This document shows, one piece after another, positions 41,832-64,000 of a stretch of 64,000 nucleotides of DNA (within the stretch, counting starts at the first letter, position 1; every line of letters starts with the position of its first letter). Source of the stretch: Massilia sp. 9I (GTDB lineage Bacteria > Pseudomonadota > Gammaproteobacteria > Burkholderiales > Burkholderiaceae_D); the NCBI RefSeq assembly GCF_902506415.1, contig NZ_LR733275.1, positions 124,001 through 188,000 on the forward strand, read 5' to 3'. Below the pieces are notes generated by a model. It saw only the letters and a list, made by a program, of their open reading frames with translations, had not been told where the DNA came from and searched no databases. Made by a program: the position numbers and the translations under genes.

Positions 41832-41851
41832 ATAATCAAGCGCTTGATTAT
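41832..41851. promoter_or_regulatory. Perfect 20-bp palindrome upstream of the rhamnogalacturonan locus
   Basis: ATAATCAAGC directly joined to GCTTGATTAT, a perfect palindrome, 85 bp before the start of the PL11 gene. Its size and central GCGC fit an operator for a dimeric repressor of the LacI, TetR or GntR type that would control the rhamnogalacturonan operon. The AATCA half-sites are shared with the DeoR-side control region at 62305-62413. Confidence 0.55.
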
Positions 41852-41935
41852 ATGAAACTCCAGCGGGGCCGCCCGTTGACACCCTCGCGCTGGAAAATCG
41901 ATACTCGGATGAGCATATCAGGAGCAAGGACTACC

Positions 41936-43810
41936 ATGGCATCGAGCGTAAAGACGAAGACGGCCGCGCTGTTGGCGCTTGCCGGCCTGCTGGCCATCCA
42001 GGGGGCGGCGGCCGCACCGGCGCGCCAGGCCGAAAAACTGGACCGCGGCGTGGTCGCGATCCGCAGCGCCGAGGGCGTGTTCGTCAGCTGGCGCCAGCTG
42101 GGTAACGAATCCCCCACGCTCGCCTTCAACCTGTATCGCAACGGCGTGAAGCTGAACGACAAGCCGCTGTTAGCCACCAACTACCTCGATGCCAAGGCCC
42201 CGCTCGACGCGCAATACAGCGTGCGCCCCGTGCTGAACGGCGTCGAAGCCAAGGCCGGCGAGCGCGCCGTCGCCACCTGGCTGGAAGGCTTCCTGCGCGT
42301 CCCGCTGCGCAAACCGGCCGATGGCGTCAATCCGGACGGGGAAGCCTACAGCTACGTGGTGAACGACGGCTCGGCCGCCGACCTCGATGGCGACGGCAGC
42401 TACGAGCTGCTGGTGAAGTGGCAGCCGACCAACGCCCACGACAACTCCCACAAAGGCTACACCGGCGCGACCCTGGTCGATGCCTACCGTCTCGACGGCA
42501 CCCTGCTGTGGCGCATCGACCTCGGCAAGAACATCCGCGCCGGCGCCCACTACACCACCTATCTGGCCTACGATTTCGACGGCGACGGCCGCGCCGAGGT
42601 GATGATGAAGACCGCCGACGGCAGCGTCGACGGCAAGGGCAAGGTCATCGGCGACGCCAAGGCCGATTACCGCAACGGAGACGGCTTCATTCTCACGGGC
42701 CCCGAATACCTGACCGTGTTCGACGGCCGCAGCGGCGCGGCACTGGCCACCACCGAGTACACACCGCCGCGCGGCGAAGCCGCTACCTGGGGCGACGCCT
42801 ACGGCAACCGCGTCGACCGCTTCCTGGCCGGCGTCGCCTACCTCGACGGCGCCCGCCCGAGCGCCGTGTTCGCGCGCGGCTACTACACGCGCGCCGTGCT
42901 CGCGGCCTGGGACTGGCGCGACGGCAAACTCACGCGCCGCTGGGTCTTCGACAGCGACACGCCCGGCAACAGCGCCTCCGCCGGCCAGGGCGCGCACTGG
43001 ATGGCCACGGCCGACGCCGACGGCGACGGCCGCGACGACATCGTCTACGGCGCCGCCACCATCAAGAGCGACGGCAGCCTGCTGTACTCCACCAATCTGT
43101 GCCACGGGGACGCGCTCCACGTCGGCAAGCATGCTCCCGGCCGCGCCGGCCTGCAGGTCTTCATGGTGCACGAGTCGCCCAAGTGCTACCAGGGCGCCGG
43201 CGCCGAGATGCACGACGCCGCCACCGGCCAGGTCCTGTGGAAGATCGAGAGCACGATCGACGTCGGCCGCGGCATCTGCATGGACATCGATGCTGCTCAT
43301 CCGGGCAACGAATGCTGGGCCGCGGTGGGCGGCATCAACAACCCGGCCGGCGGCCTGGTGAATGCGACGACCGGCCAGCAGATCTCGGCGGTGCGCCCGC
43401 GCGCCTACAACTTCGGCCTGTGGTGGGACGGTGACCTGCTGCGCGAATCGCTCGACGGCACCAAAATCGAGAAATGGAATCCGTCAGGACAGCGGCTCGA
43501 CCTGCTGCTCGACGGCGCTGAACACCGCGCTGGCTCGAACAACGGCACCAAAGCCAACCCGGTGCTGTCGGCCGACCTGTTTGGCGACTGGCGCGAGGAA
43601 GTCGTCTGGCGCACCATCTCGGACGACGCCCTGCTGGTGTTCAGCACTACCGTGCCGACCCGCCACCGCCTGCCGACCCTGATGCACGATACGCAATACC
43701 GCGCCCAGGTCGCGAACCAGAACGCCGCCTACAACCAGCCGCCGCACCCGAGCTTCTTCCTGGGCGAAGGCATGACCCCGCCGCCCCAGGCGCCTCTCCA
43801 ACTCCGTTGA
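41936..43810 (+). CDS. Rhamnogalacturonan lyase, polysaccharide lyase family 11
   Basis: A 624-residue exported enzyme. ATG at 41936 gives the signal MASSVKTKTAALLALAGLLA; the earlier in-frame start is unlikely. The mature part is an eight-bladed propeller with calcium-binding DGDG loops: DLDGDGSYELLVKW, DFDGDGRAEVMMKTADG and DADGDGRDDIVYGA. The pattern is that of PL11, which cleaves rhamnose-galacturonate linkages of RG-I by beta-elimination. It is the first of a compact five-gene operon (PL11, DUF4861, PL26, CE12, GH43). Confidence 0.92.
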   Translation: MASSVKTKTAALLALAGLLAIQGAAAAPARQAEKLDRGVVAIRSAEGVFVSWRQLGNESPTLAFNLYRNGVKLNDKPLLATNYLDAKAPLDAQYSVRPVLNGVEAKAGERAVATWLEGFLRVPLRKPADGVNPDGEAYSYVVNDGSAADLDGDGSYELLVKWQPTNAHDNSHKGYTGATLVDAYRLDGTLLWRIDLGKNIRAGAHYTTYLAYDFDGDGRAEVMMKTADGSVDGKGKVIGDAKADYRNGDGFILTGPEYLTVFDGRSGAALATTEYTPPRGEAATWGDAYGNRVDRFLAGVAYLDGARPSAVFARGYYTRAVLAAWDWRDGKLTRRWVFDSDTPGNSASAGQGAHWMATADADGDGRDDIVYGAATIKSDGSLLYSTNLCHGDALHVGKHAPGRAGLQVFMVHESPKCYQGAGAEMHDAATGQVLWKIESTIDVGRGICMDIDAAHPGNECWAAVGGINNPAGGLVNATTGQQISAVRPRAYNFGLWWDGDLLRESLDGTKIEKWNPSGQRLDLLLDGAEHRAGSNNGTKANPVLSADLFGDWREEVVWRTISDDALLVFSTTVPTRHRLPTLMHDTQYRAQVANQNAAYNQPPHPSFFLGEGMTPPPQAPLQLR

Positions 43811-43820
43811 ACGAATCGCC

Positions 43821-45041
43821 ATGACCCCACGCCTCTCCCTTACCGCCCTCGCCGCCGGCGCCCTGTTCTCGGTCGCGGCCGGCGCCGCAGAACGCCTGAG
43901 CGTCAGCGCCAGCCACACGCTCGACATCGCCCGTCCGTCGGAGACCATCGCCATCCCCTGGGCCAGGGTGGCCGAAGCCCTGCCGAAAGCCTTGAACCAG
44001 CAGCTGATCGTCAAGGACGCCAAGGGCCGCGTCCTGCCCTACCAGGTGACCAACCTGTCGCCGATGGCGAAAGATCCGGGCATGAGCGGGGTCGCCTACG
44101 GCGAGCTGCTGTTCCAGTACGACTTCAAGGCCGGCGAAAAGACCGCCCGCTTCACCATCGAAAAGGCCAAGGCGACCGTCAAGCCCTTCCCGGCCAGGAC
44201 CTACGCCCGTTTCGTGCAGGAGCGCCTCGACGACTTCGCATGGGAAAACGACCGCCTGGCGCACCGCACCTACGGCCCGGCCCTCGCCGCGCCGGCGCCC
44301 GCCGGCAGCGACAAGGAAGTCCTGGTCACGAGCGGCATGGACATCTGGTTCAAGCGCGTGCCCTACCCGATCGTCGACCGCTGGTACAACATCGGCCACG
44401 ACCACTACCATGTGGACGAGGGCGAAGGCATCGACATGTACAACGTCGGCCCGACCCGCGGCGCGGGCGGCACCGGCATCTGGGACGGCAAGCAGCTTTA
44501 TGTGGGCGCCAACTTCAAGACCTGGAAGATCCTCGCCAACGGCCCGGTACGCACCGTGTTCGAGCTGAGCTACGACGGCTGGGATGCGGCGGGCGTCAGG
44601 GTCGCGGAAGTGAAGCGCTTCACGGTGGACGCGGGCCGCTGGTTCGACCGCATCGACAGCACCTTCAGCTTCAGCGGGCCGGCGCAGCTGACGGCGGCCG
44701 TGGGGCTGAACAAGCAACCTAGCGACAAGGGCCAGGAAGTGAAGGTCGATTTCGCGGAGAACGCGAAAGACGGCAGCCTGGTGCAGTGGGTCACCCAGCG
44801 CAGCTTCGGCGACTTCGGCGTGGCCCTGATCGTGCCGACCGCCTCCGCTTTCGCCGCGGACGAGCGCAATGCGCTGGTCACGGCCCCGGTCACTTCCGGC
44901 CAGCCGCTGCGTTACTACGTGGGCGCGGCCTGGACCCGCGGCAGCCCCTTCGCCACCCAGGCCGACTGGCAGCGCCAGGTCGCGCTCGAAGCGGCGCGCC
45001 TGCGGGCTCCGGTTGAAGTCAAGCTGTCGGCGGGGCGCTGA
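43821..45041 (+). CDS. DUF4861 family exported protein
   Basis: A 406-residue protein starting 10 bp after the PL11 stop. Signal peptide MTPRLSLTALAAGALFSVAAG. The body (IVDRWYNIGHDHYHVDEGEG, TWKILANGPVRTVFELSYDGW) is beta-rich and matches DUF4861, a family found mostly in pectin and rhamnogalacturonan loci. The His-rich loop GHDHYHVDEGEG may bind a metal or substrate. Catalytic activity has not been assigned as far as I know; position suggests it acts on RG-I fragments. Confidence 0.8.
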   Translation: MTPRLSLTALAAGALFSVAAGAAERLSVSASHTLDIARPSETIAIPWARVAEALPKALNQQLIVKDAKGRVLPYQVTNLSPMAKDPGMSGVAYGELLFQYDFKAGEKTARFTIEKAKATVKPFPARTYARFVQERLDDFAWENDRLAHRTYGPALAAPAPAGSDKEVLVTSGMDIWFKRVPYPIVDRWYNIGHDHYHVDEGEGIDMYNVGPTRGAGGTGIWDGKQLYVGANFKTWKILANGPVRTVFELSYDGWDAAGVRVAEVKRFTVDAGRWFDRIDSTFSFSGPAQLTAAVGLNKQPSDKGQEVKVDFAENAKDGSLVQWVTQRSFGDFGVALIVPTASAFAADERNALVTAPVTSGQPLRYYVGAAWTRGSPFATQADWQRQVALEAARLRAPVEVKLSAGR

Positions 45042-45044
45042 GCC

Positions 45045-47732
45045 ATGGCCCCTCTGTCCCGCCGCAACTTCATCAAGACCGGAGCGCTGGCGGCCGCGCT
45101 GCCGCTGGCCTTCCAGCGTCCCGTCTCGGCCCAGCCGGCCAAGGCCGCGGCGCCCGCCGCGCCACTGGCCTGGCTCGAAGGCCTGCCCCAGCTGTGCACC
45201 GGCGCCACGGTCGGCGTGCCCTGGCCGCGCGGCGCGCTGCGCAAGGATCAGGCGTTTGTCCTGTCAGGCGCCAACGGCGCCGAGATTCCCTGCCAGAGCT
45301 GGGCCACGGCGTATTGGCCGGACGGCTCGCTGAAGTGGACTGCGCACGCGTTGCCGGCCCATGACAGCATGCCGGAGCGCCTGGTCGTCAAACCGGGCAA
45401 TCCGGCGCGCGTCAAGACGTCGGTGACCGTCGCCGAGCGCGACGGCGCGTTCGTGGTCGGCACCGGTGTGATCGAGTGCGTGGTGCCGCGCAAGGGCGCC
45501 GAGATCATCGCCAGCATCCGGCGCGGCGGCAGCGAGATCGCGCGCGGCGGCCACCTGGTCGCCCTCAGCGACGACCAGCCCGAGGGCAGCACCCGCCAAA
45601 GCGCGTACCAGAGCGAGATCGCACAGGTCATCGTGGAGCAGCGCGGGCCGGTGCGCAGCGTGCTGAAGATCGAGGGACGCCACCGCGCCATGGACGGCAG
45701 CCGCAGCTGGCTGCCCTTCGTCGTGCGCCTGTATTTCTATGCGGGCGCCGAATCGGTGCGCATCATGCACACCTTCGTCTTCGACGGCGACGAACACAAG
45801 GACTTCGTGCGCGGCATCGGCCTGCGCTTCAGCGTGCCGCTACGCGACGAGCCGCACGACCGCCACATCCGCTTCGGCGGCGAGGACGGCGGGCTGTGGG
45901 CGGAAGGTGTGCGCAACCTCACCGGTCTGCGTCGCGATCCGGGGGAAGCCGTGCGCAAGGCGCAGCTGGCCGGCAGCGCCGCGCCGGAGATCGCCGAGCG
46001 GGTGCGCAAGAACCTGCAGTACGTTCCGGCCTGGGGCGACTACTCGCTCACCCAGCTCTCCGCCGACAGCTTCCGCATCCGCAAGCGCACCAAGGCCGGT
46101 CATGGCTGGATCGAGGCGGCCTGGGGCCGGCGCGCGCCGGGCCTGGGCTACATCGGCGGCGCCAAAGGCGGCGTCGCCTTCGGCCTGCGCGACTTCTGGC
46201 AGCGCCACCCGACCCAGCTCGACGTGCGCAACGCCCATCTTGATGCGGCCCAGGTCACCCTGTGGATGTGGTCACCGGACGCGCCGGCGATGGACCTGCG
46301 CTTCTACCACGACGGCATGGGCATGGACAGCCACGCCGAAGAGCTGCAGGCGCTCGACGTCACCTATGAGGACTACGAAAAGGGCTTCGGTACGCCGGTC
46401 GGCGTGGCGCGCAGCAGCGAGATCACGCTCTGGGCCCTGGCAGCCACGCCGGCGCGCGAGCGCCTGGTGCAGATGGCCGCGCTGGTACAGACCCCGCCCC
46501 AGCTGGCTGCATCGCCCGCCCACATCCTGGCCACGCGCGCCTTCGGCAACCTGTGGTCCCTGCCCGACCGCTCGACGCCGGCGCGCGCCGCCATCGAAGA
46601 CCAGCTCGACGGACGCTTCGACTTCTATCGAAGGGAAGTCGACCAGCGCCGCTGGTACGGTTTCTGGGATTACGGCGACATCCGCCACACCTACGACCCG
46701 GACCGCCACGAATGGCGCTACGACGTCGGCGGCTACGCCTGGGACAATTCGGAGCTGTCGCCGGACCTGTGGCTGTGGTACTCCTTCCTGCGCACCGGCC
46801 GCGCCGACATCTTCCGTATGGGCGAGGCCATGGTGCGCCATACGAGCGAGGTCGACACCTACCACCTGGGGCGCTTCGCCGGCCTGGGCACGCGCCACAA
46901 CGTGCAGCACTGGGGCTGCAGCGCCAAGCAGGTGCGCATCAGCACCGCCGCGTACCGTCGCATGTATTACTTCCTGACGGCGGACGAGCGCATCGGCGAC
47001 GTCCTGCGCGAGATCCTGGATGCCGACCAGCGCTTGGATGAGGTCGACCCGGTGCGCAAGCTGCCGGCCCAGCCGCCGAAAGGCCCGTATCCGGCGCGCG
47101 CCAGCTTCGGCACCGACTGGGCCTCGCTGGTGGCGAACTGGCTCACCGAATGGGAGCGCAGCGGCAGCCCCAAATACCGCGACAAGATCCTGACCGGCAT
47201 GCGCGATATCGCCGCCATGCCGCACGGCTTCTTCAACGGCGACCGCATGGGCTACGATCCGAACACCGGCCACCTGTTTAACATGATCGGCAGCGACGTC
47301 AGCGCCTCGCACCTGAACGCCGTGTTCGGCGCCGTCGAAACCTTCGACGAGCTGATCGCCCTCACCGGCGACAAGGCTTTCGAGAAGGCCTGGCTCGAGT
47401 ACTGCGAACTGTACAACGCGCCCGCCGAGGAGCAGCGCCGCCGCCTGGGCAAGAGCCATGGCGGGACCGACGCCCTCTATCTCGGCAACTCGCGCATGAC
47501 CGCCTACGCGGCCTGGAAGCGCAAGGATCCCGAACTGGCCCGCCGCGCCTGGAGGGAATTCGCCAGCGTGAAGCGGCCGTATCCGGCCTTCGCGCCGACC
47601 CGCGTGGCCGGCCCGGCGGTGCTCAACCCGGTGATGGAGGTCCCTTTCGTCACCACCAACGACACCGCGCAATGGGGCCTGGCCGCGATCCAGAACCTGG
47701 CCCTGATCGGCGATGCGCTGCCGAACCCATGA
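45045..47732 (+). CDS. Exo-rhamnogalacturonan lyase family protein (PL26, YetA-like)
   Basis: An 895-residue protein with a Tat signal (SRRNFIKTGALAAALPLAF), so it folds in the cytoplasm before export. Segments such as PWPRGALRKDQAFVL, SLKWTAHALPA and VRLYFYAGAESVRIMHTFVF match the PcRGLX/YetA-like family, PL26, which removes unsaturated rhamnogalacturonan units from the chain end. It is directly after the DUF4861 gene (3-bp gap) and before the CE12 gene (4-bp gap), so is translated from the same mRNA. Confidence 0.88.
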   Translation: MAPLSRRNFIKTGALAAALPLAFQRPVSAQPAKAAAPAAPLAWLEGLPQLCTGATVGVPWPRGALRKDQAFVLSGANGAEIPCQSWATAYWPDGSLKWTAHALPAHDSMPERLVVKPGNPARVKTSVTVAERDGAFVVGTGVIECVVPRKGAEIIASIRRGGSEIARGGHLVALSDDQPEGSTRQSAYQSEIAQVIVEQRGPVRSVLKIEGRHRAMDGSRSWLPFVVRLYFYAGAESVRIMHTFVFDGDEHKDFVRGIGLRFSVPLRDEPHDRHIRFGGEDGGLWAEGVRNLTGLRRDPGEAVRKAQLAGSAAPEIAERVRKNLQYVPAWGDYSLTQLSADSFRIRKRTKAGHGWIEAAWGRRAPGLGYIGGAKGGVAFGLRDFWQRHPTQLDVRNAHLDAAQVTLWMWSPDAPAMDLRFYHDGMGMDSHAEELQALDVTYEDYEKGFGTPVGVARSSEITLWALAATPARERLVQMAALVQTPPQLAASPAHILATRAFGNLWSLPDRSTPARAAIEDQLDGRFDFYRREVDQRRWYGFWDYGDIRHTYDPDRHEWRYDVGGYAWDNSELSPDLWLWYSFLRTGRADIFRMGEAMVRHTSEVDTYHLGRFAGLGTRHNVQHWGCSAKQVRISTAAYRRMYYFLTADERIGDVLREILDADQRLDEVDPVRKLPAQPPKGPYPARASFGTDWASLVANWLTEWERSGSPKYRDKILTGMRDIAAMPHGFFNGDRMGYDPNTGHLFNMIGSDVSASHLNAVFGAVETFDELIALTGDKAFEKAWLEYCELYNAPAEEQRRRLGKSHGGTDALYLGNSRMTAYAAWKRKDPELARRAWREFASVKRPYPAFAPTRVAGPAVLNPVMEVPFVTTNDTAQWGLAAIQNLALIGDALPNP

Positions 47733-47736
47733 AAGC

Positions 47737-48993
47737 ATGAGCATGAAACCGACCCTCCTCGCAGCCCTGCTACTGGCGGGCTGCGCCGCGCAGCCGCCGG
47801 CAAACGACGCGCTGCGCTTCGCCTTCAACGATGCGGCGCCAGGTGGCTATACGCAGGTGGCGCCCGGGACCCTCTACGATGCAGCGCGCGGCTATGGTTT
47901 CGAGCCGGGCGCAGCCCCAGGCAGCTACTTTTCCGTCGACCTCCCGGAAGGGAACTACCGCGTAACGGTTAGCCTCGGCGACGACGCCCGGCCGGCCAGC
48001 ACCACGATCAAGTCCGAGCTGCGCCGCCTGATGCTGGAGAACGTGCAGACGGCGGCCGGTGAGCAAATGGAACGCAGCTTCATCGTGAACGTGCGCACGC
48101 CGCAAATTCCGGCGCTGGCCGGCATCGCTCCCGGCCAGGTGAACATTAATGTCCCGCGCGAGACGGTGGCCGAAGCCTGGGCTTGGGACAAGCGCCTGAC
48201 CCTGGAACTGAACGGCGCCCATCCGGCAGTGCGCACCCTGACGATCGTCCCGGCGCAGGTGCCGACCCTGTTCCTGCTCGGCGACTCCACCGTCAGCGAC
48301 CAGCCGGGGGAGCCCTACAACAGCTGGGGCCAGATGCTGCCGCGCTTCTTCAAGCCCTCGATCGCGGTCGCCAACTACGCGCAGTCGGGCGAAACCTACC
48401 GCGACTCGCTGGCCAAGCGCCGCATCGACAAGATCCTGACGCAACTGAAGCCGGGCGACACGGTCCTGATGCAGTACGGGCATAACGACCAGAAGCAGAT
48501 CGCCACCGGCAAGGGTGGTCCTTTCACCACCTACAAGGCCGAGATCAAGACCCACGTCGAGATGATCCGCGCACGCGGCGGCCTGCCCGTGATCGTCTCC
48601 TCGGTCGAGCGTCGCCGCTTCGACGCAGCCGGCAATGTGGTGCCCACCCTCACCGACTACGCCGAAGCGGCGCGCCAGTCGGCGCAGGAACTGGGCGCTC
48701 CCTTCATTGACCTGAACGCGATGAGCAAGACCCTGTACGCGGCGCTCGGCGTCGAGGGCTCGAAAGCCGCCTTCGCCTTGCCGGAGCCGGGACGACTCGA
48801 CAACACCCACCACAACCCCTACGGCAGTTACGAGCTGGCCAAGACCGTGGTGCTGGGCATGCGCCTGGCGAAACTGCCGGTGGCCAGCCATGTGGTCGAC
48901 GATTTCGCCTTCGACCCGGCCCATCCCGATCCGGTCGCCGCATTCGCCGTGCCGCCGAGCCCAACCCGGGCCGAACGCCCCGCAGGCCAATGA
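47737..48993 (+). CDS. Rhamnogalacturonan acetylesterase, CE12-type SGNH hydrolase (lipoprotein)
   Basis: A 418-residue predicted lipoprotein: signal and lipobox LLLAGCAAQ. A ~150-residue N-terminal beta domain (FAFNDAAPGGYTQVAPGTLY) precedes the SGNH hydrolase with the Ser motif LLGDSTVSD, the block III GHND (QYGHNDQK) and the Asp-His pair (LDNTHHNPYG). It removes acetyl groups from the galacturonic acid of RG-I, opening it to lyases. It overlaps by four bases the GH43 gene downstream. Start at 47737 or 47743. Confidence 0.9.
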   Translation: MSMKPTLLAALLLAGCAAQPPANDALRFAFNDAAPGGYTQVAPGTLYDAARGYGFEPGAAPGSYFSVDLPEGNYRVTVSLGDDARPASTTIKSELRRLMLENVQTAAGEQMERSFIVNVRTPQIPALAGIAPGQVNINVPRETVAEAWAWDKRLTLELNGAHPAVRTLTIVPAQVPTLFLLGDSTVSDQPGEPYNSWGQMLPRFFKPSIAVANYAQSGETYRDSLAKRRIDKILTQLKPGDTVLMQYGHNDQKQIATGKGGPFTTYKAEIKTHVEMIRARGGLPVIVSSVERRRFDAAGNVVPTLTDYAEAARQSAQELGAPFIDLNAMSKTLYAALGVEGSKAAFALPEPGRLDNTHHNPYGSYELAKTVVLGMRLAKLPVASHVVDDFAFDPAHPDPVAAFAVPPSPTRAERPAGQ

Positions 48994-49946
48994 AACGCCG
49001 CGCCGCGCTGACGACGCTGGCAGGCGCCGTGCTTTCGGGCTGCCTGCCGCTGGTCAGTACAGGAGAGAAGCAGGCTTACTTATTCGCCTACTTCACCGGC
49101 AATGGCGGGGATGGCCTGCACCTGGCCGCCAGCAGTGACGGTTATCAGTGGGAGGCGCTGCGCGGTGGCGCCAGCTTCCTGGTGCCTAGCGTCGGCAAGT
49201 CGAAGCTGATGCGCGACCCCAGCCTGGTGCGCGGGCCGGACGGCCTGTTCCACATGGTGTGGACCAGCGGCTGGAACGACCAGGGCATCGGCTACGCCTC
49301 CTCCCCCGACCTGCTGCACTGGTCGCCCCAGCGCGCGCTGCCGGTGATGGCGCACGAGCCGGGCGCGCTGAATGCCTGGGCGCCCGAGATCTTCTACGAC
49401 AGGCAGCGCGGCCACTACCTGATCCTGTGGTCCTCGACCATTCCGGGACGCTTCCCCGAGACCGATGGCCAGAGCGAAGAAAAGTACAACCACCGCATCT
49501 ATGCCACCACGGCGCAGGACTTCAACAGCTTCACGCCGACCCGGCTGTACTACGATCCCGGTTTTTCGGTGATCGACGCGACGCTCACCCACGCCTTCGG
49601 GCGCGACTGGCTGCTAGTGAAGGACGAGACCCGCCATCCGCCGAAGAAGCACCTGCGGGTGGCGCCGGCAGCCCGCTTCGACGGTCCCTTCGGTGCGCTC
49701 GGTGCGCCGATTACGCCCTCAGGGTTGTGGAGCGAAGGGCCAAGCGTGCTGCAGGTCGGGGACGAGGTGATCGTGTACTACGACGCCTACACCGCCGGCC
49801 ACTACGGCGCGATGCGCACGCGCGACATGGTCAATTGGGAAGACGTGACGGCGAAGCTGCGCTTTCCGGGCGCCGGGACGAAGCAGCGGGTGCGGCATGG
49901 GACTGCGTTTGCCGTGCCCTCGGCGCTTGTGGAACGGCTCAGGTAG
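48990..49946 (+). CDS. GH43 family glycoside hydrolase (lipoprotein)
   Basis: A 318-residue enzyme with a lipobox (LAGAVLSGC). The five-bladed propeller of GH43 is shown by the Asp motif KLMRDPSLVRG and the Glu motif WAPEIFYD. GH43 enzymes remove arabinose, xylose or galactan side-chain residues; in this setting arabinan or galactan side chains of RG-I are likely. Last gene of the plus-strand operon; a perfect hairpin follows the stop. Confidence 0.88.
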   Translation: MKRRAALTTLAGAVLSGCLPLVSTGEKQAYLFAYFTGNGGDGLHLAASSDGYQWEALRGGASFLVPSVGKSKLMRDPSLVRGPDGLFHMVWTSGWNDQGIGYASSPDLLHWSPQRALPVMAHEPGALNAWAPEIFYDRQRGHYLILWSSTIPGRFPETDGQSEEKYNHRIYATTAQDFNSFTPTRLYYDPGFSVIDATLTHAFGRDWLLVKDETRHPPKKHLRVAPAARFDGPFGALGAPITPSGLWSEGPSVLQVGDEVIVYYDAYTAGHYGAMRTRDMVNWEDVTAKLRFPGAGTKQRVRHGTAFAVPSALVERLR

Positions 49947-49968: not shown

Positions 49969-49975
49969 CCACGGA

Positions 49976-51400: not shown

Positions 51401-51413
51401 GGGGTGTCTCCTT

Positions 51414-53749: not shown

Positions 53750-53903
53750 GACGGGTCTCCGTAATATTTTAGCTTTACCCGGATTCTATGCGCCACCGCT
53801 GAACCCGGCAGTAAAGACGCAGAAAGAATCACCATCATGATCAGATCTGAGCAACTCATGCTGGGAGAATGAGCGGACAACATCACAATATGGAGACACC
53901 ACC

Positions 53904-55241: not shown

Positions 55242-55246
55242 TTCGG

Positions 55247-55876: not shown

Positions 55877-55890
55877 ATGAGGACTATCCA

Positions 55891-56832: not shown

Positions 56833-56837
56833 TCGTA

Positions 56838-56920
56838 GCGTGGGCGGCTTTGCCGCCCACGCGGTCGACTAGCGTCAATAATCTGCGTCTGCTGGCCGCG
56901 TGGGCAGGAAACCTGCCCAC
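56838..56920. repeat. Two tandem GTGGGC hairpins between the esterase and rhaM genes
   Basis: Hairpin 1: GCGTGGGCGGC (56838-56848), loop TTT, GCCGCCCACGC (56852-56862), an 11-bp perfect stem. Hairpin 2: GTGGGCAGG (56900-56908), loop AAA, CCTGCCCAC (56912-56920), a 9-bp perfect stem. They lie between convergent genes and share a core with the hairpin at 49946-49968. Together they form a REP-like intergenic family that probably also stops transcription. Confidence 0.8.
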
Positions 56921-56938
56921 CCTACGGATAGAAAAACT

Positions 56939-57256
56939 TCAGGCCAGGTGAAACACCTGCGTGAGCGGCCACTCCTTCGGCCGGTTCCCCGGCTCGACCT
57001 CCATCAGGTCCGCCATGTAATCCCACCACCTGCGCATCACCGGATGCTCCGGCAGCGGCCCGAGCTGGTGTCCAGGGCGCAGCTTCATGACCGCAAACAG
57101 ATCCAGCGTCGCCTCGTCCAGGAAAATCGAATAATCGTAAACACCGGCCCCACTCAGGAGCGAAGACAGCTCCGGCCAGATCTCGTCATGCCGGCGGCGG
57201 TATTCCTCTTCGTTGCCCGGTTTGAGTTTCATGCGGAATGCGCGGGTGGTGCTCAT
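56939..57256 (-). CDS. rhaM: L-rhamnose mutarotase
   Basis: A 105-residue protein of the RhaM/YiiL family (dimeric alpha/beta). Features: TRAFRMKLKPGNEEEYRRRH, DEIWPELSSLL, YSIFLDEAT and RRWWDYMADLME. It interconverts the alpha and beta anomers of L-rhamnose, speeding its use. It overlaps the GH28 gene by four bases (ATGA at 57253-57256), so it is in the GH28 transcript. Confidence 0.92.
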   Translation of the reverse strand: MSTTRAFRMKLKPGNEEEYRRRHDEIWPELSSLLSGAGVYDYSIFLDEATLDLFAVMKLRPGHQLGPLPEHPVMRRWWDYMADLMEVEPGNRPKEWPLTQVFHLA

Positions 57257-58698
57257 GTCTTGTCCTGCTCCTCGTAGCTCTTCTTCGATGGGTCCTTCTT
57301 CACACGCGCTGCGCCGATGGCGAAACTGCCAGGCGCCAGCCCGGTCACGCTGCTGGCGCGGCCGACCGCGATCGGGGCGCCCAGGCGCAGCGTGGTGTTG
57401 GTGAACTGCCAGCCGGCCGCGTCCTCGATGTGTCCGCCCTGCTTCGCCTCGATGTCGAGCGCATCGAAGCGGAAGGCGCGCATCGGCTCCTCGGGATAGC
57501 CGTCGACCTCGAAGGCCGTGGTGGCGCCGCGCGCGGTGACGTTCCAGATCCGCACCTCGCGGAACCTGGCCCGGCCCTGCTCAGGCGGCACCCTGGTTGC
57601 CAGCACCTTCCAGTGCGCCGGCGGATTGTCGATCTCCGCCGGAATGCTGGCATAGCTGTAGGCCGGGTTCCAGTTCATAGTGGCGCGCATCACGACCGGT
57701 ACGCCCTCCATGGTGAAATCGTGCAGGCGCAGGTTCTCGCCCCAGCCGCCGCGCGTATGCGCCGACTTGAACAGGATCCCGACCGGAACCTTGCTCTCGA
57801 CCCGGATGTTGTAGGCCTCGATGTTGCGGAAACCGCCCGAGGTCTCGCTGCCGAAGGTGAAACCGGCCGCGCCCGCGCGCACCACCACGTCGCGCACGAT
57901 CACATCCTCGGTCGGCCGCGCCACCCGCAGCCCGTCCGAATCGCGCCCGGCCTTCATCACCAGCGCGTCGTCGTTGACGGCGATATCGGCGTTCGCCACC
58001 AGGATGCGGCGCGAGGAATCGATGTCGATGCCGTCGGTCGAGGGGCCGTGGCCATCCTCGTTGTTGCGGATGACGACCCCGTCGACGACGATGTCACTGG
58101 AATAGCAGATGTGCAGGGTCCAGAATCCGGAACGGCGCATCAAGAGCCCGCCGCCGATCCTGACCTCGCTGGACTCGAACACTTGCACCAGGCGCGGACG
58201 CCCGGCGTCGTAGTCCGAGGCCCAGCGCAGGCCGCGCGGTTCATAGGTGCGGCGCAGGTTCCAGTAGCTGTCCCAGAACACCTTGCCGTCGCCGTCGATC
58301 GTACCTTCGCCGACGATGGCCGCGCCCTTCTGCCCCACGATATTGACCAGGGCCGCCGGCCAGCGCATCTCGATGCCGGCGATCCGGGTCGGCAGCACCG
58401 GGTAGTGCGCGATGTCGCGCGAACCGAGCAGGGTCACGCCCTTGTCCAGGCGCAGGGTGACGCCGGACTTCACGAAGATCGACCCGGTGAGGTAGGTCCC
58501 GGGCGGGAACACGACCGTGCCGCCCTCCTTTGCCGCAGCGTCGATGGCCGCCTGGATGGCTGAGGTATTCAGGGTCGTGCCGTCGCCGCGCGCGCCGAAG
58601 CGGGCGGCATCGACAATGGAGGAAGCGGCTGCGACAGCCGGCGCCAGCGCGCACAGCGCCAGGCCGGCCAGCAGCAGCCTGCGGGAGGCTCCTTGCAT
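57253..58698 (-). CDS. GH28 family protein (polygalacturonase/rhamnogalacturonase fold)
   Basis: A 481-residue exported right-handed beta-helix protein with signal (RRLLLAGLALCALAPAVAA). The GH28 acid residues are kept: Asp222 in STDGIDID and Asp243-Asp244 in NDDALVMKAG. The usual GHG motif near the active site is replaced: the segment reads RAGAAGFTFGSETSGG, so the catalytic-site His (around residue 278) is Ala. Activity may be altered or aimed at a different linkage. It is 12 bp after rhaI and just before rhaM, all on the minus strand. Confidence 0.85.
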   Translation of the reverse strand: MQGASRRLLLAGLALCALAPAVAAASSIVDAARFGARGDGTTLNTSAIQAAIDAAAKEGGTVVFPPGTYLTGSIFVKSGVTLRLDKGVTLLGSRDIAHYPVLPTRIAGIEMRWPAALVNIVGQKGAAIVGEGTIDGDGKVFWDSYWNLRRTYEPRGLRWASDYDAGRPRLVQVFESSEVRIGGGLLMRRSGFWTLHICYSSDIVVDGVVIRNNEDGHGPSTDGIDIDSSRRILVANADIAVNDDALVMKAGRDSDGLRVARPTEDVIVRDVVVRAGAAGFTFGSETSGGFRNIEAYNIRVESKVPVGILFKSAHTRGGWGENLRLHDFTMEGVPVVMRATMNWNPAYSYASIPAEIDNPPAHWKVLATRVPPEQGRARFREVRIWNVTARGATTAFEVDGYPEEPMRAFRFDALDIEAKQGGHIEDAAGWQFTNTTLRLGAPIAVGRASSVTGLAPGSFAIGAARVKKDPSKKSYEEQDKT

Positions 58699-58709
58699 GG
58701 GAGCCTGGA

Positions 58710-60005
58710 TCAGACGATGCCGCTGCTGCTGGCGCCCGCCTTGGCCGGACGCGCACTGGCGACGCGGTCGCGGTAGCCGCTGGCGCGGTAGCAGGCCACC
58801 GGATCGGCGGCGCCGCCGGCGCGCACGCGCGCCATCGCCAGGATCGGGCTGACGTCGGTGCGGAAGGCGCGCTTGAGGCACTGGGCCGCCTGCAGCACGT
58901 CGTTCTGCTCCTGCAGCGAGGCCAGTTCGGCGCGGTCGACCAGGGCCGACTGCACGAAGGAACGCTGCACCTCGACCGCGCTGCTCATCAGGCTTTCGAT
59001 CGGATCGGTCACGTTGTGCGACTGGTCCAGCATGTAGGCCGGTTTGAAGCCGGGGCCTTCGCGCAGGGCCGCATCGGCCAGCTCGTTGAAGACCAGGAAC
59101 AGCTGGAACGGATTGATCGAGCCCGAATCGAGGTCGTCGTCACCGTACTTGCTGTCGTTGAAGTGGAAGCCGCCGAGCTTGCCGAACTGCGCCAGGCGCG
59201 CCACGATCATCTCGATATTGGTATTCGGTGCATGGTGGCCGAGGTCGACCAGGCACTTGGCCTTGGGACCCAGCTCGGTGGCGCAAGCGAAGCTGGTGCC
59301 CCAGTCGGCGATGGTGGTGGCATAGAAGGCCGGTTCGAACAGCTTGTGCTCGATAAAGATGTTCCAGTCAGCCGGCAGCGCCGCATAGATCTGGCGCATG
59401 CTCTCCAGGTAGCGTTCCAGCGCGCCGCGCAGGTTGCTCTGGCCCGGGAAGTTGGCGCCGTCGCCGACCCACACGGTGAGTGCCTGCGAACCAAGCGCCT
59501 GGCCCAGCTCGATGCATTCGATGTTGTGGGCCACGGCCTGGGCGCGCGCCTGGGCGTTGTTGGCGGTCAGGCTGCCGTATTTATACGTGTGTTCCTGGCC
59601 CGCCTGGTCCTGGAAGGTGTTCGAGTTGACGGCGTCGAAGCCGAGACCCAGCTCCTGGGCAAAGCCGCGCAGCTCGCTGGCGTCGGTCGGTTTGTCCCAC
59701 GGGAAGTGCAGCGACACGGCCGGGGTGGCGCGGGTCAGCTGGTTGATCACGCCGCAGTCTTCCAGCTTCTCGAAGACGTTGCGCGGCTCGCCGCGGCCCG
59801 GGAAGCGCGCAAAGCGCGTGCCGCCGGTACCGGCGCCCCAGCTTGGGACCGCCACTTCGAAAGTCGCCGCCAGCGCGGTCAGTTTGTCGATGTCCAGGCC
59901 GCGGCGCGCGAGCACCCCGCCCAGCGCGTCATAGTCGGCCTGCAGGCCGGCGTCCAGTTTGGCATTCTGGTCTTGCACCAGGCCCGCGTCGATCACGCTT
60001 TTCAT
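58710..60005 (-). CDS. rhaI: L-rhamnose isomerase (RhaI type)
   Basis: A 431-residue TIM-barrel metal isomerase of the P. stutzeri-like RhaI family. Recognisable parts: VPSWGAGTGGTRFARFPG, VSLHFPWDKPTDASEL, WVGDGANFPGQ, CLVDLGHHAPNTNIE and GGFHFNDSKYGDDDLD, which carry the metal-binding His, Asp and Glu residues. It converts L-rhamnose to L-rhamnulose. Unrelated in sequence to E. coli RhaA. In one direction with rhaEW upstream (61 bp) and GH28 downstream. Confidence 0.93.
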   Translation of the reverse strand: MKSVIDAGLVQDQNAKLDAGLQADYDALGGVLARRGLDIDKLTALAATFEVAVPSWGAGTGGTRFARFPGRGEPRNVFEKLEDCGVINQLTRATPAVSLHFPWDKPTDASELRGFAQELGLGFDAVNSNTFQDQAGQEHTYKYGSLTANNAQARAQAVAHNIECIELGQALGSQALTVWVGDGANFPGQSNLRGALERYLESMRQIYAALPADWNIFIEHKLFEPAFYATTIADWGTSFACATELGPKAKCLVDLGHHAPNTNIEMIVARLAQFGKLGGFHFNDSKYGDDDLDSGSINPFQLFLVFNELADAALREGPGFKPAYMLDQSHNVTDPIESLMSSAVEVQRSFVQSALVDRAELASLQEQNDVLQAAQCLKRAFRTDVSPILAMARVRAGGAADPVACYRASGYRDRVASARPAKAGASSSGIV

Positions 60006-60065
60006 GCTTTGTCTCCTTCATACCGCGGTAGCAAGGGGCAGCCCCTTGCTCCGCAGCCTTCTATT

Positions 60066-62174
60066 TTAGCGGGTGAATGCCCCGGCGTTGCCGGCGTCCA
60101 CATTGAGGATGTTGCCGGTGCTCTTGGCCGACTTGTCGCTGGCGAAGAAGTAGACCGCTTCGGCGATATCTTCCGGCAGCACGCTCAGTTTCAGCATGCT
60201 GCGCTTGCGGTAGAACTCCTCGATGTCGTCGGTATCGATCTTGTTGGAGGCGGCGCGCTCTTCCTTCCACTTGCCGTCCCAGATGCGCGAACCCTTGATG
60301 ACCGCGTCCGGGTTGACGACGTTGACGCGGATGCCGTGCTCGGCGCCTTCCAGCGCGACGCAGCGGGCCAGGTGCAGCTCGGCCGCCTTGGCGGTGCAGT
60401 AGGCCGAGGCGCCGGCGGACGCCACCAGGCCGTTCTTGCTGCCCACGAAGACCATGCTGCCGCCCAGCTTCTGCTGCTTCATCATCTGGAAGGCGCTGCG
60501 GCTGACCAGGAAGTAGCCGGTGACCAGGATGTCCTGGTTGCGCTTCCAGATGTCGAGGGTGGTCTCGTCCAGCGGTGCGGCGGAGGCGATGCCGGCGTTC
60601 GACACCAGGAGGTCGACGCCACCGAAGCGCAGCGCGGTCTCCGCCAGCACCTGGGCGACTTCTTCTTCGCTGGTGATGTTGCCGCGCACGACCGCGACGT
60701 TGTCTTTACCGGCCGCCTTGGACAGGGCTGCCTGGGCCGAGGCCAGCGCTTCGTTGTCGATGTCGGTCACCATCACGCAAGCGCCTTCCTGCAGCAGCTG
60801 GCGGGCGACCGCCTGGCCGATGCCGCCGGCGCCGCCGGTCACCAGGGCGATGCGGCCCGCCAGGCTTTTCGGCTTGGGCATGCGCTGCAGCTTGGCTTCC
60901 TCGAGCAGCCAGTATTCGATGTCGAAGGCTTCCTGTTCCGGCAAGCCGACATAGCTGTCGACGCCGTTCGCGCCGCGCATCACGTTGATCGCGTTGACGT
61001 AGAACTCGCCGGCGATCCTTGCCGTGGCCTTGTCCTTGGCGAAGGAAAGCATGCCCACGCCCGGGATCAGGTAAATAATCGGGTTGGCATCGCGGATTTT
61101 CGGGCTGGTGGCGCGCTTGCAGCGCTCGTAATAGGCGGTGTAGTCGGCGCGGTAGTCGACCAGGGCCTGGTCCAGGCCCGCGACCAGGCGCTCGAAGTCC
61201 GGGGCCGCCGGGTCGAAGTCCAGCACCAGCGGACGGATCTTGGTGCGCAGGAAGTGGTCCGGGCAGGAGGTGCCGAGGGCCGCCAGGGGCTTGAGGTCGG
61301 CGCTGCAAACGAATTCCAGCACGGCTTCGCTGTCGTCGAAGTGGCCCAGCTTGAATTCTTCCTGGCTGATCTTGCCGCGCAGGAGAGGCATCAGGCGCGC
61401 CGCCACGGCTGCACGCTCCTCGGCCGCCAGCGCCTGGGTCGCCTCGCCGCCGAACACCGGCTGCTGGATGTTCTGCGCCAGCCAGTCCTCGGCGCGCTTG
61501 ATGATCGCCAGCGTGGTTTCGTAGCAGGATTTCGAGGTGTCGCCCCAGGTGAACAGGCCGTGGCCTTCCAGGATGATGCCCTTGAGCTGCGGGTTCTCGC
61601 GCGAGACGGCTTCCAGTTTCAGGCCCAGGTCGTAGCCGGGACGCTGCCACGGCAGCCAGCCCAGCTCACCTTCAAAGATCTTGGCGGTCAGTTCCTTGCT
61701 GTTCTTGCAGGCGGCGATCGCGATGCAAGAATCCGGGTGCATGTGGTCGACGTGCTTGCGGTCGATGTAGGCGTGCAGCGGGGTGTCGATACTGGCGGCG
61801 CGCGGGTTCAGGTTGAAGGTGCAATGCGGCAGGTAGCCGACCATCTCGTCCTCGTGCTCGAGGCCGCGATAGCGCCCTTTCAGGGCCTGCAGCTTGTCCA
61901 TGTACAGGGTCGAGAAGCCATCGAGCTTGATCGAACCCAGGTCGCCGCCCGAGCCCTTCACCCACAGCACCTCGACCTGCTGGCCGGAGAGCGGGTCCGT
62001 CATCGTGACCTTGGCCGAGGTATTGCCGCCGCCGAAATTGGTAATGCGCAGGTCCGAACCCAGCAGGTTGGAACGGTACAGCAGCAGTTCCGGCTCGCTC
62101 ATGTTCGCAGCTGCACTGTCGTCCCAGCGCGAGGTGATCGGTTCACGCTGTTTCGTTTCGCTCATAGCGCCCAT
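60066..62174 (-). CDS. rhaEW: Bifunctional rhamnulose-1-phosphate aldolase / short-chain dehydrogenase
   Basis: A 702-residue fusion. Residues ~1-430 are a class II aldolase (TNFGGGNTSAKVTM, HPDSCIAIAACK, GIILEGHGLFTWG) that splits L-rhamnulose-1-phosphate into dihydroxyacetone phosphate and L-lactaldehyde. Residues ~440-702 are a short-chain dehydrogenase (VTGGAGGIGQAVARQL; catalytic YCTAK in ASAYCTAKAAEL) predicted to oxidise the lactaldehyde. Start at 62174 (MGAMSETK) with AGGAG before it. First gene of the minus-strand operon rhaEW-rhaI-GH28-rhaM. Confidence 0.93.
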   Translation of the reverse strand: MGAMSETKQREPITSRWDDSAAANMSEPELLLYRSNLLGSDLRITNFGGGNTSAKVTMTDPLSGQQVEVLWVKGSGGDLGSIKLDGFSTLYMDKLQALKGRYRGLEHEDEMVGYLPHCTFNLNPRAASIDTPLHAYIDRKHVDHMHPDSCIAIAACKNSKELTAKIFEGELGWLPWQRPGYDLGLKLEAVSRENPQLKGIILEGHGLFTWGDTSKSCYETTLAIIKRAEDWLAQNIQQPVFGGEATQALAAEERAAVAARLMPLLRGKISQEEFKLGHFDDSEAVLEFVCSADLKPLAALGTSCPDHFLRTKIRPLVLDFDPAAPDFERLVAGLDQALVDYRADYTAYYERCKRATSPKIRDANPIIYLIPGVGMLSFAKDKATARIAGEFYVNAINVMRGANGVDSYVGLPEQEAFDIEYWLLEEAKLQRMPKPKSLAGRIALVTGGAGGIGQAVARQLLQEGACVMVTDIDNEALASAQAALSKAAGKDNVAVVRGNITSEEEVAQVLAETALRFGGVDLLVSNAGIASAAPLDETTLDIWKRNQDILVTGYFLVSRSAFQMMKQQKLGGSMVFVGSKNGLVASAGASAYCTAKAAELHLARCVALEGAEHGIRVNVVNPDAVIKGSRIWDGKWKEERAASNKIDTDDIEEFYRKRSMLKLSVLPEDIAEAVYFFASDKSAKSTGNILNVDAGNAGAFTR

Positions 62175-62518
62175 CAAATATCTCCTATTGATTGTTTTGT
62201 CATCGACCCAAGCGGCCGATGCGTCTCTTCCATGTCCTGCTTGCACGCTGTGATGCGGCACCGGGAGACAGTAGAAAGCAGCGGGACAAAGGGTGTCAAC
62301 GCAGAATCAATCAACTTGCTGACCAAGTCGCAATCAATCACCGAGTTGATCGATTTGCGCGTTTGTGCGTTGCAGCGAAGGCAAATAATCACCGTATTGA
62401 TCATTTTGTGATTGACGCTACGGTAGCGATTGCTCAATACTTTTCCTACATACCGCGATCCCACAGGGACGACGGATATCACGCCGCACCAAAACAGACG
62501 GCTTTCGGAGGAGACAAC
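62175..62518. promoter_or_regulatory. Divergent control region of the rhamnose operons (344 bp, no gene)
   Basis: No coding frame is supported here. It holds repeated AATCA-type half-sites: AATCAATCA at 62305-62313 and again at 62332-62340; the second forms an inverted repeat with TGATCGATT (62347-62355). AATCACCGAGTTGATC (62336-62351) and AATCACCGTATTGATC (62387-62402) are near-identical copies 51 bp apart, and AATCAC (62387-62392) pairs with GTGATT (62408-62413). CGCTAC-G-GTAGCG is a perfect 13-bp palindrome at 62416-62428. These are candidate operators for the DeoR-family protein next to it, serving both divergent transcripts. Confidence 0.65.
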
Positions 62519-63379
62519 ATGGTGAATCACAAACGCCGCAAGCGTTTGCTGAAGCTGCTTGCCGAGCACCAGACGGCAACGGTCCAGCAGCTTGTCGAAT
62601 GGCTCAACGCATCCCCTGCGACGGTCCGTCGCGACATCAGTTGGCTGGCTGGTCGCAACCTGCTCACCCGCACCCGCGGCGGCGCCGAGAACCTGCTGCC
62701 GAAGACGCGCCAGTTCTCGCTCACCAGCGAAACCTTCCAGAACAACATTCAGTGCTATGCGGCGCGCAAGCGCGCCATCGCCCGCCATGCCGCCGGCATG
62801 TGCACCGACGGCGAAACGATCATCATCAACGGCGGCACGACCACCTTCATGATGGCCGAGTTCCTCACCGATAAGCACCTGAAGATCCTCACCAACTCCT
62901 TCCTGATGGCCGAGCGCCTGCTGGTATCGAGCGAGAACGAGATCATCGTGCCGGGCGGCCGCGTCTACCGCGAGCAGAACGTTATCCTCTCGCCCTTCGA
63001 CAACGACATCACCCAGCACCACTACGCCACCAAGATGTTCATGAGCGTCTACGGCCTCTCGCTGCTGGGACTGATGGAAGCCGATCCGCTCCTGATCCAG
63101 GCCGAGAAGCGCCTGATCAGCCAGGCCGAGGAACTGGTGGTGCTGGCCGACAGCTCGAAGTTCGCGCGCAAGGCCGGCCTGATCCTGTGCGGCCTGGACC
63201 GCGTGTCCACCGTGATCACCGATACCAATGCCACCGACAAGGCCGTGCAACTGCTTGAGCAGTACGGCGTGAAGGTGGTTACCGTCGAACCGGACGGCGA
63301 ACCCTCCGCCCTGAGCGCGCCGCGCTACAGCCCGCAATACGACCTGCAGTCCGCCGCCCTGATGGAGCTTTCGCATTGA
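62519..63379 (+). CDS. DeoR/GlpR family regulator of the rhamnose genes
   Basis: A 286-residue repressor-type regulator. ATG at 62519 has the strong site GGAGGAGACAAC. The N-terminal HTH (RKRLLKLLAEHQTATVQQLV, NASPATVRRDISWL) is followed by the DeoR sugar-phosphate sensor domain (IINGGTTTFMMAEFL, ILTNSFLMAERL, ADSSKFARKAGL). It probably senses a phosphorylated rhamnose-pathway sugar and controls both the divergent rhaEW operon and its own operon with the ABC transporter. The next gene overlaps its stop. Confidence 0.92.
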   Translation: MVNHKRRKRLLKLLAEHQTATVQQLVEWLNASPATVRRDISWLAGRNLLTRTRGGAENLLPKTRQFSLTSETFQNNIQCYAARKRAIARHAAGMCTDGETIIINGGTTTFMMAEFLTDKHLKILTNSFLMAERLLVSSENEIIVPGGRVYREQNVILSPFDNDITQHHYATKMFMSVYGLSLLGLMEADPLLIQAEKRLISQAEELVVLADSSKFARKAGLILCGLDRVSTVITDTNATDKAVQLLEQYGVKVVTVEPDGEPSALSAPRYSPQYDLQSAALMELSH

Positions 63380-64000
63380 AGATCAAAAACATCCTGCTCG
63401 CGGCCGCCGCCGTCGGCATCCTCGCCGGCTGCGGTGAGAAGAAAACCGAAGCCGGAGCCAATCATCCGGTCAAGATCGCGATGGTCGTGAAAAGCCTGGG
63501 CAACGGTTTCTTCGACGCCGCCCACACCGGCGCCAGGGAAGCAGCGAGCCAGATCGGCGGCGTCGAGGTGATCTATACCGGCCCCACCACTCCCAGCGCC
63601 GAAGGCCAGATCGAGATCATCAACTCCCTGATCAGCCAGAAGGTCGACGCCATCGTGATCTCGGCCAACGACCCGAACGCGCTGGTGCCGATCACCAAGA
63701 AGGCGATGCAGCGCGGGATCAAGGTGATCTCCTTCGACAGCGGCGTGGCGGCCGGCGGCCGCCAGATGCAGCTGAACCCGTCCAACGCGGAGCTGATCGG
63801 CGAGAAGCAGATCCAGATGGCGGCCAAGGAAATCGGCGGCAAGGGTGAACTGGCAATCCTGTCGGCTTCGGCCCAGGCGACCAACCAGAACACCTGGATC
63901 GGCGTCATGAAGAAGACGCTCGAGAAGCCCGAATACAAGGACCTGAAACTGGTGGCCACCGTCTACGGCGACGACCAGTCGGACAAGAGCTACCGCGAAG
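63376..64000 (+). CDS. rhaS: Rhamnose-type ABC transporter substrate-binding lipoprotein (3' end cut)
   Basis: Start is a TTG at 63376 overlapping the DeoR stop as TTGA. The visible 208 residues begin with a lipoprotein signal (MKIKNILLAAAAVGILAGC) and continue as a periplasmic-binding-protein-like I fold of the RbsB/RhaS group (VKIAMVVKSLGNGFFDAAHTG, EIINSLISQKVDAIVISAND). By context it is the L-rhamnose binding protein; ATPase and permease genes and possibly rhamnulokinase should follow beyond 64,000. Confidence 0.85.
   Translation, partial: MKIKNILLAAAAVGILAGCGEKKTEAGANHPVKIAMVVKSLGNGFFDAAHTGAREAASQIGGVEVIYTGPTTPSAEGQIEIINSLISQKVDAIVISANDPNALVPITKKAMQRGIKVISFDSGVAAGGRQMQLNPSNAELIGEKQIQMAAKEIGGKGELAILSASAQATNQNTWIGVMKKTLEKPEYKDLKLVATVYGDDQSDKSYRE

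Follow-up and report, generated by a model that had tools for sequence, protein, structure and literature searches.

The stretch of DNA analysed here (the window) comprises 64,000 nucleotides of Massilia sp. 9I (contig NZ_LR733275.1; C7:124001-188000 in the 5.53-Mb genome) and was found to contain a locus for the degradation of rhamnogalacturonan I (RG-I) joined to the genes of L-rhamnose catabolism. A PL11-DUF4861-PL26-CE12-GH43 operon on the plus strand and a CE12t-DUF6250-GH105 operon on the minus strand were followed by a PL22-like gene, an esterase gene and a Rhizobium-type L-rhamnose (rha) set. The functional locus was about 48 kb long, its first 22 kb lying within the window and the remainder extending past the window end to about w90132 (w, numbering of the window). 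The new element is an operator-like word, which was found before the rha, RG-I and TonB-receptor genes. The locus is read as a patchily distributed, syntenic RG-I utilisation regulon under DeoR control, with a probability of roughly 0.7. All genes named in an earlier reading of this DNA (the original prediction) were recovered with Pfam and NCBIfam profiles.

Families were assigned by comparing the Pfam and NCBIfam profiles with their cut-offs, and leaders were judged by inspection. The plus-strand operon was found to begin with a secreted PL11 rhamnogalacturonan endolyase (41936..43810), which matched RGL11_C at 764.9 bits (4.8e-230) and RGI_lyase at 97 bits, both over the cut-off, and PDB 4cag, YesW and YesX at E<=6e-213. 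Its start is most likely 41936 rather than 41828, judging by the ribosome site and the signal peptide. It was followed by a secreted, BT_3233-like DUF4861 protein (43821..45041; Pfam 267 bits; NF058564 316.3, cut-off 320) and a PL26 rhamnogalacturonan lyase (45045..47732), which contained three PcRGLX domains (626.8, 516.1 and 100.5 bits, all over the cut-off) and aligned to the PcRGLX structures over residues 37-893. The Tat-type leader of PL26 contained SRRNFIK, the Pfam TAT model scoring 19.3 bits, below the 22.7 cut-off. The operon ended with two lipoproteins, a CE12-like GDSL acetylesterase (CE12a; 47713..48993; Pfam Lipase_GDSL_2; lipobox LAGC) and a GH43-like protein (GH43a; 48990..49946; Pfam GH43 44 bits, cut-off 32; lipobox LSGC).

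The minus-strand operon contained a tandem CE12-like GDSL acetylesterase with two GDSL stretches in 554 aa (CE12t; 52085..53749), followed by a secreted DUF6250 protein of lectin-like fold (51414..52088; Pfam 198.7 bits) and a GH105 unsaturated rhamnogalacturonyl hydrolase (49976..51427, start 51427 or 51385; Pfam GH88/105 264 bits), which matched PDB 3k11 at 5.8e-131 and YteR at 2.7e-28. The CE12 assignment was given by a generic GDSL match over the cut-off, the PaeY-like model reaching 84 bits, far below its cut-off. The two operons, which had been described as divergent, were found to be convergent, their 3′ ends meeting at 49946/49976; the divergent pair of the locus is CE12t/PL22-like, with a gap at 53750-53903. 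The PL22-like gene (53904..55241, plus strand) encodes a secreted beta-propeller and candidate lyase. It was followed by a DUF1080/3-keto-disaccharide-hydrolase-like lipoprotein (55247..55876, minus strand; Pfam 3keto-disac_hyd 84.5 bits; lipobox LGGC), a secreted PaeX-like alpha/beta-hydrolase esterase (55891..56832, plus strand; Pfam BD-FAE; PaeX 261 bits, below the cut-off of 550) and a GH28 protein (57253..58698, minus strand; Pfam 48.6 bits). GH28 was closest to the rhamnogalacturonidase and galacturonidase models, the former being the nearest in NCBIfam (BT4153 model 193 bits, cut-off 650), and far below their cut-offs. The family calls for CE12 (GDSL only), GH43a, GH28 and the PL22-like protein are the weaker ones. 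A signal peptide, lipobox or Tat-type leader was found in most of the locus enzymes, with lipobox cysteines in CE12a, GH43a, DUF1080 and RhaS, in agreement with the Tat-type PL26, the lipoprotein CE12 and GH43 and the mostly exported enzymes that had been predicted.

The rha set was found to contain the L-rhamnose mutarotase gene rhaM (56939..57256; Pfam 97.5 bits), the rhizobial-type L-rhamnose isomerase gene rhaI (58710..60005; TIGR02629 692.7 bits, cut-off 646.75) and the rhamnulose-1-phosphate aldolase/lactaldehyde dehydrogenase gene rhaEW (60066..62174; TIGR02632 1057 bits, cut-off 568), all on the minus strand. They were followed on the plus strand by a DeoR-family regulator, a RhaR-type candidate (62519..63379; Pfam DeoRC and HTH_DeoR), and by the sugar-binding lipoprotein gene rhaS (63376..64000, running on to 64389), with rhaT, P, Q and K downstream beyond the window. 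The presence of RhaI and RhaEW over their cut-offs, together with RhaK, RhaSTPQ and DeoR, marks the set as Rhizobium-type L-rhamnose catabolism. By family, the predicted route from rhamnose to dihydroxyacetone phosphate (DHAP) and lactate is complete, the RhaEW chemistry being that given in the available part of PMC3870299. An FMN-dependent L-lactate dehydrogenase gene, lldD (40645..41775, minus strand; NF033901 624 bits, cut-off 550), adjoined the locus just outside the coordinates of the original prediction (41832-64000). LldD may provide the final step for RhaEW-derived lactate, and lldD is placed in some RhaR regulons of Actinomycetales and Rhodobacterales in the same part of PMC3870299.

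A full route from RG-I to central metabolism had been proposed for the locus. The rhamnose half, to DHAP and lactate, stood, whereas the full route is not established since no match to KduI (PF04962) or UxaC (PF02614), both of the galacturonate half, was found genome-wide (controls positive in 6 and 7 of 14). KdgD and a GH106 rhamnosidase (C7:2595598) were encoded in the genome, unlinked to the locus. The window itself contained neither rhaTPQ-rhaK nor the TonB receptor, which lie beyond it. There the order was found to run from rhaS to rhaTPQ-rhaK, followed by GH35, an SSF transporter, GH43, the TonB receptor (w77772-81011; over the TonB-Xanth-Caul cut-off), a GntR regulator (w81181-81942), a PelN-like PL9 (635 bits, below the cut-off of 740), GH2 and a second PL26 (w87394-90132). 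Two candidates in this part were rejected: w90142-93459 is a PD40/amidohydrolase protein rather than a TonB receptor, and w84498-85322, tried as a uronate dehydrogenase, turned out to be no more than an Azf/epimerase-like SDR.

Conservation was followed in 101 genomes, namely the window's own and 100 relatives, from 43 genera. PL26 was found in 25 and RhaI in 27 of them, and all 25 genomes with PL26 also contained RhaI; two contained RhaI only, none PL26 only and 74 neither (Fisher p 1e-21, kinship ignored). Matches to both were confined to one of the 43 genera, the window's own. The two genes were on the same contig in 24 of the 25 genomes, 7.9-38.8 kb apart, and on two contigs in G016; the PL26 of G020 is a 30-residue remnant. 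In G050 (C50:213607-214841), a RhaI-like gene was recovered as two fragments, one of them interrupted by a TGA, and a full-length copy was present on the same contig.

Regions were fetched for 15 of the 26 relatives having RhaI, and the RG-I block was found to adjoin rha in 14 of them, G030 containing the rha half only. The genes rhaI, rhaEW, deoR, rhaSTPQ and rhaK were present in 15/15 regions, followed by DUF4861, CE12a, GH43a, GH105, DUF6250, CE12t, the esterase and rhaM in 14/15, the esterase standing at a different place in G056 and G057. PL26a (three at only 43% identity) and the PL22-like gene were each found in 13/15, PL11 and DUF1080 each in 9/15 and lldD in 6/15. A PelN-type PL9 was found in 8/15 regions, five of them without PL11, as though the one endolyase stood in for the other. 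GH28, part of the route as originally drawn, was found at >=50% identity in only 1/15 regions. Outside the genus, much of the gene order was found to recur in Duganella and Pseudoduganella loci with GH28 in its place between rhaM and rhaI (L120-L123, L125, L129, L132, and the metagenome assemblies L127 and L130). The linkage of RG-I and rhamnose genes that had been predicted was thus borne out by the 25/25 co-occurrence and the 14/15 adjacency. The comparison across Oxalobacteraceae genomes showed a conserved locus, and scattering without conservation, the outcome named beforehand as speaking against the prediction, was not found. The system is of an ordinary kind, patchy but syntenic; its conservation is good within part of one genus and among the genera related to it. 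A GH30-family glycosidase gene (w36371-38254), about 3.6 kb ahead of the locus with DUF4440, DUF3422 and lldD in between, was absent from all 15 fetched regions.

The core of the operator-like word was read, in the 15 relatives, from the rhaEW/deoR gaps (220-320 bp) and, in the window, from a longer stretch. It was found to be the palindromic ATCA-N6-TGAT, conserved in the window (62333..62405) and in 10/15 relatives as a pair of exact copies spaced 51 bp apart, and in the other five as a single copy. A conserved repeat was therefore present ahead of the rha operons, as in a DeoR-type RhaR regulon. A scan of the window's genome with the core then found sites at the PL11 promoter (41831..41849, AATAATCAAGCGCTTGATT), in the CE12t/PL22-like gap (53823..53842, AAAGAATCACCATCATGATC) and before the TonB receptor. 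Of the relatives, 10/15 contained the core in the CE12t gap, and several had it upstream of the TonB receptor, GH35/SSF or GH43 genes. For 16 loci, the non-coding sequence plus the initial 90 bp of genes gave 54 matches at spacer 6, whereas shuffled sequence averaged 1.7 (30 shuffles, maximum 4). Three GC-rich palindromes reached 55-83 matches at spacer 6 in the same shuffle test, so the comparison of spacers is the control that counts: the core halves gave only 1-8 matches at twelve other spacers. Core matches inside rhaS, rhaQ and rhaEW were taken for codon artefacts. In the CE12/PL22 gap of L134, L153, L154, L157, L163, L174 and L180, labelled Roseateles, Pelomonas, Paucibacter and Methylotenera, a different conserved element, GCGCAAGWTCWTGAGCGATT, was found in place of the Massilia word.

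Genome-wide, the loose form AWNRATCAN6TGATY was only moderately specific, with 11 places in the window's genome, six of them inside C7:165831-205076, and 2-10 strand matches in each of eight genomes without PL26. The strict word was AAAKAATCA-N6-TGAKY, widened to TGAK after TGAG variants had been seen, so that the counts of the loose form and those of the strict word in this first set of genomes are partly post hoc. All four strict matches of the window's genome were found in the locus (CE12t/PL22, rha, GH35/SSF and the TonB receptor), followed by 21 of 27 matches within 60 kb of RhaI in six locus genomes, 2/2 at rha in the rha-only G030 and 1/2 in G015. Six genomes with neither half contained no match. 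With the word then fixed, ten further locus genomes contained 38 matches, 22 of them in the locus, and ten further genomes without the locus contained none. This test is partly held out, as the CE12/PL22 gaps of G003, G016, G018, G028 and G055 had been seen earlier; the fully unseen locus genomes (G027, G033, G046, G048 and G050) contained 9 of 17 matches in the locus, and the ten genomes without the locus were likewise new to the analysis.

Some of the matches outside the locus were found to lead to further RG-I genes. In the ten further genomes, five of the 16 outside matches, three of them in unseen genomes, preceded 90-95% homologues of a PL4 rhamnogalacturonan lyase, as did two of the six in the first set of locus genomes. 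The word was placed about 200-270 bp upstream of this unlinked lyase in seven genomes (L184:5382-7202, from G053, with homologues in L185 and L198-L202), and in L184 the gap was shared with a divergent SBF-like transporter. The window's genome gave no match to PF14683 (PL4), a search that lacked a positive control, though the model matches L184. A match in G010, 36 kb from RhaI, preceded three same-strand genes, the last a 44% PL4. Two outside matches were found on G048:C15, a contig with a second PL26 and a 49% PL11. Others preceded an SSF homologue (G027:C14) or TonB receptors (G018:C8 and G028:C11); the receptor cases weigh less because TonB receptors are common. Six of the 16 were without an evident link. 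The word was also observed just upstream of two proteins whose N-termini look alike (380 aa, G024:C1:4571530, L186:4347-5489; 357 aa, G003:C13:329256, L204:3107-4180). The best evidence that the word is functional is that, having been defined on the promoters of rha and RG-I genes, it also picks out an RG lyase gene unlinked to them. The shared word supports the co-regulation of rha and RG-I genes, which would be most simply exerted by DeoR.

Several observations weigh against a regulon read by DeoR through this word. In 19 further loci, the exact core was found at the CE12/PL22 gap in only two (expected 0.036), TGAG stood in place of TGAT in ten, and seven (Roseateles, Pelomonas, Paucibacter and similar) did not contain the word there. 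The rha gaps of G016 and G048 contained no strict match, and at least 8 of 22 outside matches were without an evident link (both G024 sites, G018:C41, G016:C9, G016:C77, G003:C13, G046:C44 and G050:C50). The core is palindromic, whereas the DeoR motifs in the available part of PMC3870299, including those of DeoR-type RhaR, are direct repeats of 10-11 bp; a TGAT repeat 11 bp on was visible in the alignment of the rhaEW/deoR gap. All 17 strict rha sites were AAAT and all 29 strict sites elsewhere in the locus AAAG, when the four CE12/PL22 sites within the six-kilobase rha bin were counted, by position, as CE12/PL22. GntR relatives at >=50% were found in 12/16 locus genomes and 0/8 others, so that GntR tracks the locus too.

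The complete T/G split makes two readers possible, with DeoR controlling rha only through the AAAT sites and the RG-I genes under another regulator, such as the GntR of w81181-81942, that reads their AAAG sites in response to a galacturonate-derived signal. The distribution of GntR relatives at E<=1e-10 (14/16 locus genomes, 0/8 others) fits such an arrangement; the best matches in G003, G028 and G053 read through stops, another copy without stops being present in G003 and G028. Nevertheless, G047 and G056 were without a GntR match and G010 and G029 had one of only about 31%, and all four keep the AAAG sites, which makes it less likely that GntR alone reads the RG-I sites. The two site classes also have a common core, and when the two regulators of the window's locus were traced, deoR was found in 15/15 relative regions and gntR in 3/15. 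Control by two regulators is considered rather unlikely, and DeoR probably reads both classes.

Linkage alone could explain the co-occurrence of PL26 and RhaI if the two halves had been acquired together and stayed neighbours without shared control, the word being something else, such as a promoter element. A general promoter element would not show the distribution found, with no strict match in 16/16 genomes with neither half and the unlinked PL4 lyase marked in seven genomes, and this explanation is very improbable. As little credit is given to a substrate other than RG-I, that is, another rhamnose-uronate polymer: GH105, PL22-like and DUF families are found in other uronate systems, and GH43 and DUF1080 are unspecific by family knowledge, but PL11, PL26 and the word-marked PL4 are RG-lyase families, with PL26 matching PcRGLX at 2.6e-247 and PL11 matching YesW at 4.3e-215. 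The regulon under DeoR control is retained as the probable reading of the locus.

If the locus holds new enzymology, the secreted PL22-like protein is where it is most likely to be found. Its Pfam PL22 (PF14583) score of 24.3 bits was below the gathering cut-off of 30, and 31 of 39 members matched at E<=0.01. Its model (pLDDT 82) was found to have the PL22-type propeller fold, superposing on the oligogalacturonate lyase 3pe7 with Z 36.5 (rmsd 2.8 over 349), followed by 3c5m with Z 35.3 and the next fold at 25.1. R256, H404 and H406 aligned with Arg217, His353 and His355 of 3pe7 (numbers of 3pe7 counted by hand) and were invariant in 39 sequences. These 3pe7 residues are taken as the catalytic Arg and metal ligands, with Gln350 as a further ligand, whose position in the PL22-like protein was occupied by Ala in an ungapped extension; H361 as the remaining metal ligand is a guess. 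The protein is thus like the PL22 lyases 3pe7 and 3c5m in fold and in the aligned Arg and HxH, and unlike them in its 19% identity, its secretion, the Ala at the Gln350 position and its RG-I/rhamnose context.

Two peptide patterns matched 344 stretches; a relative of the PL22-like protein was encoded in 305, from which the best 80 were retained. Among these 80, the closest named relatives were from Massilia sp. BSC265 (92%), M. alkalitolerans and M. timonae (both 90%), in keeping with a Massilia-type member of the Oxalobacteraceae, the family assumed in the original prediction. The protein was still 67-76% identical in Bacteroidota and Acidobacteriota. Its neighbours were mostly CE12 in Burkholderiales and often GH105 or a weak GH28 match, with some rha genes, in Bacteroidota, and 11 of the 80 stretches contained none of the queried genes nearby. 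Rhamnose or RG-I genes stood beside it in, for example, Acidobacteria L144 and L179, Flavobacterium L158 and Salegentibacter L168. Judging by model and context, it may plausibly act as a lyase on RG-I oligomers; that it forms a lyase family of its own, acting on RG-I-derived oligosaccharides and not on oligogalacturonate, is a tentative and somewhat doubtful proposal.

The DUF6250 model (pLDDT 91) was found to match 1oq1 of B. subtilis with Z 22.5 (rmsd 2.2 over 190; next 19.1). We take 1oq1 to be YesU, from the RG-I cluster of that species, in which case a CE12/lectin-like/GH105 set would be common to two very distant RG-I loci. No paper on DUF6250 or DUF4861 was found in the open-licence literature, and a sequence search with DUF4861 gave no solved structure. 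An oligosaccharide dehydratase role for DUF4861, from a link to the ulvan enzyme P29_PDnc, was dropped given PMC8511951, in the available part of which such dehydratases are predicted with the PL37 family.

In the proposed mechanism, RG-I would be deacetylated outside the cytoplasm by the CE12a, CE12t and PaeX-like esterases, followed by internal cleavage of the backbone by PL11 (PL9 in some relatives) and cleavage from an end by PL26. Also outside the cytoplasm, GH105 would split the unsaturated disaccharide, releasing L-rhamnose together with unsaturated galacturonate, while GH43, GH35 and GH2 would trim the side chains. Oligomers would be imported via the TonB receptor and rhamnose via RhaSTPQ. 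RhaM, RhaI, RhaK and RhaEW would convert rhamnose to DHAP and L-lactate, from which LldD may yield pyruvate. The DeoR repressor encoded with rha would bind operators of the ATCA-N6-TGAT type before the rha, RG-I and receptor genes and would be released when rhamnose or a derivative appears.

The locus provides a sequence-defined RG-I regulon for Massilia and its relatives that is open to testing. In this soil bacterium, the genes for dismantling the rhamnose-rich part of pectin, with enzymes mostly of known kinds, adjoin those for consuming the released rhamnose, and three uncharacterised secreted proteins (PL22-like, DUF6250 and DUF4861) travel with the regulon. The word also locates unlinked RG-I genes and may aid in mapping the whole pathway, including the missing galacturonate branch. 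No on-topic paper on RG-I in Massilia, Oxalobacteraceae or Duganella, and no description of a predicted regulon of this kind for the family, was found in the open-licence literature.

Among known systems, the yes/yte RG-I cluster of B. subtilis resembles the Massilia locus in its make-up, with the Massilia PL11 near YesW and YesX and GH105 near YteR, and the B. subtilis control genome also contained a PL26-family match. In contrast to yes/yte, the Massilia locus is Gram-negative, contains a TonB receptor, lipoproteins and a Tat-type leader, and is joined to the rha genes. The available part of PMC3870299 describes RhaR plus a separate RhgR in Bacillales and one regulator for rhamnose and rhamnose-oligomer genes in Actinomycetales, Thermotogales and Enterobacteriales, and its text contained no mention of Burkholderia, Burkholderiales or beta-proteobacteria. 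The rhaRSTPQUK/rhaDI genes of Rhizobium leguminosarum, described in the same part, have in common with Massilia the DeoR regulator, the RhaSTPQ ABC importer, RhaK, RhaI and the mutarotase. Unlike in R. leguminosarum, the rha genes of Massilia were found to be joined to a secreted RG-I system, and the operator-like word reaches the RG-I genes.

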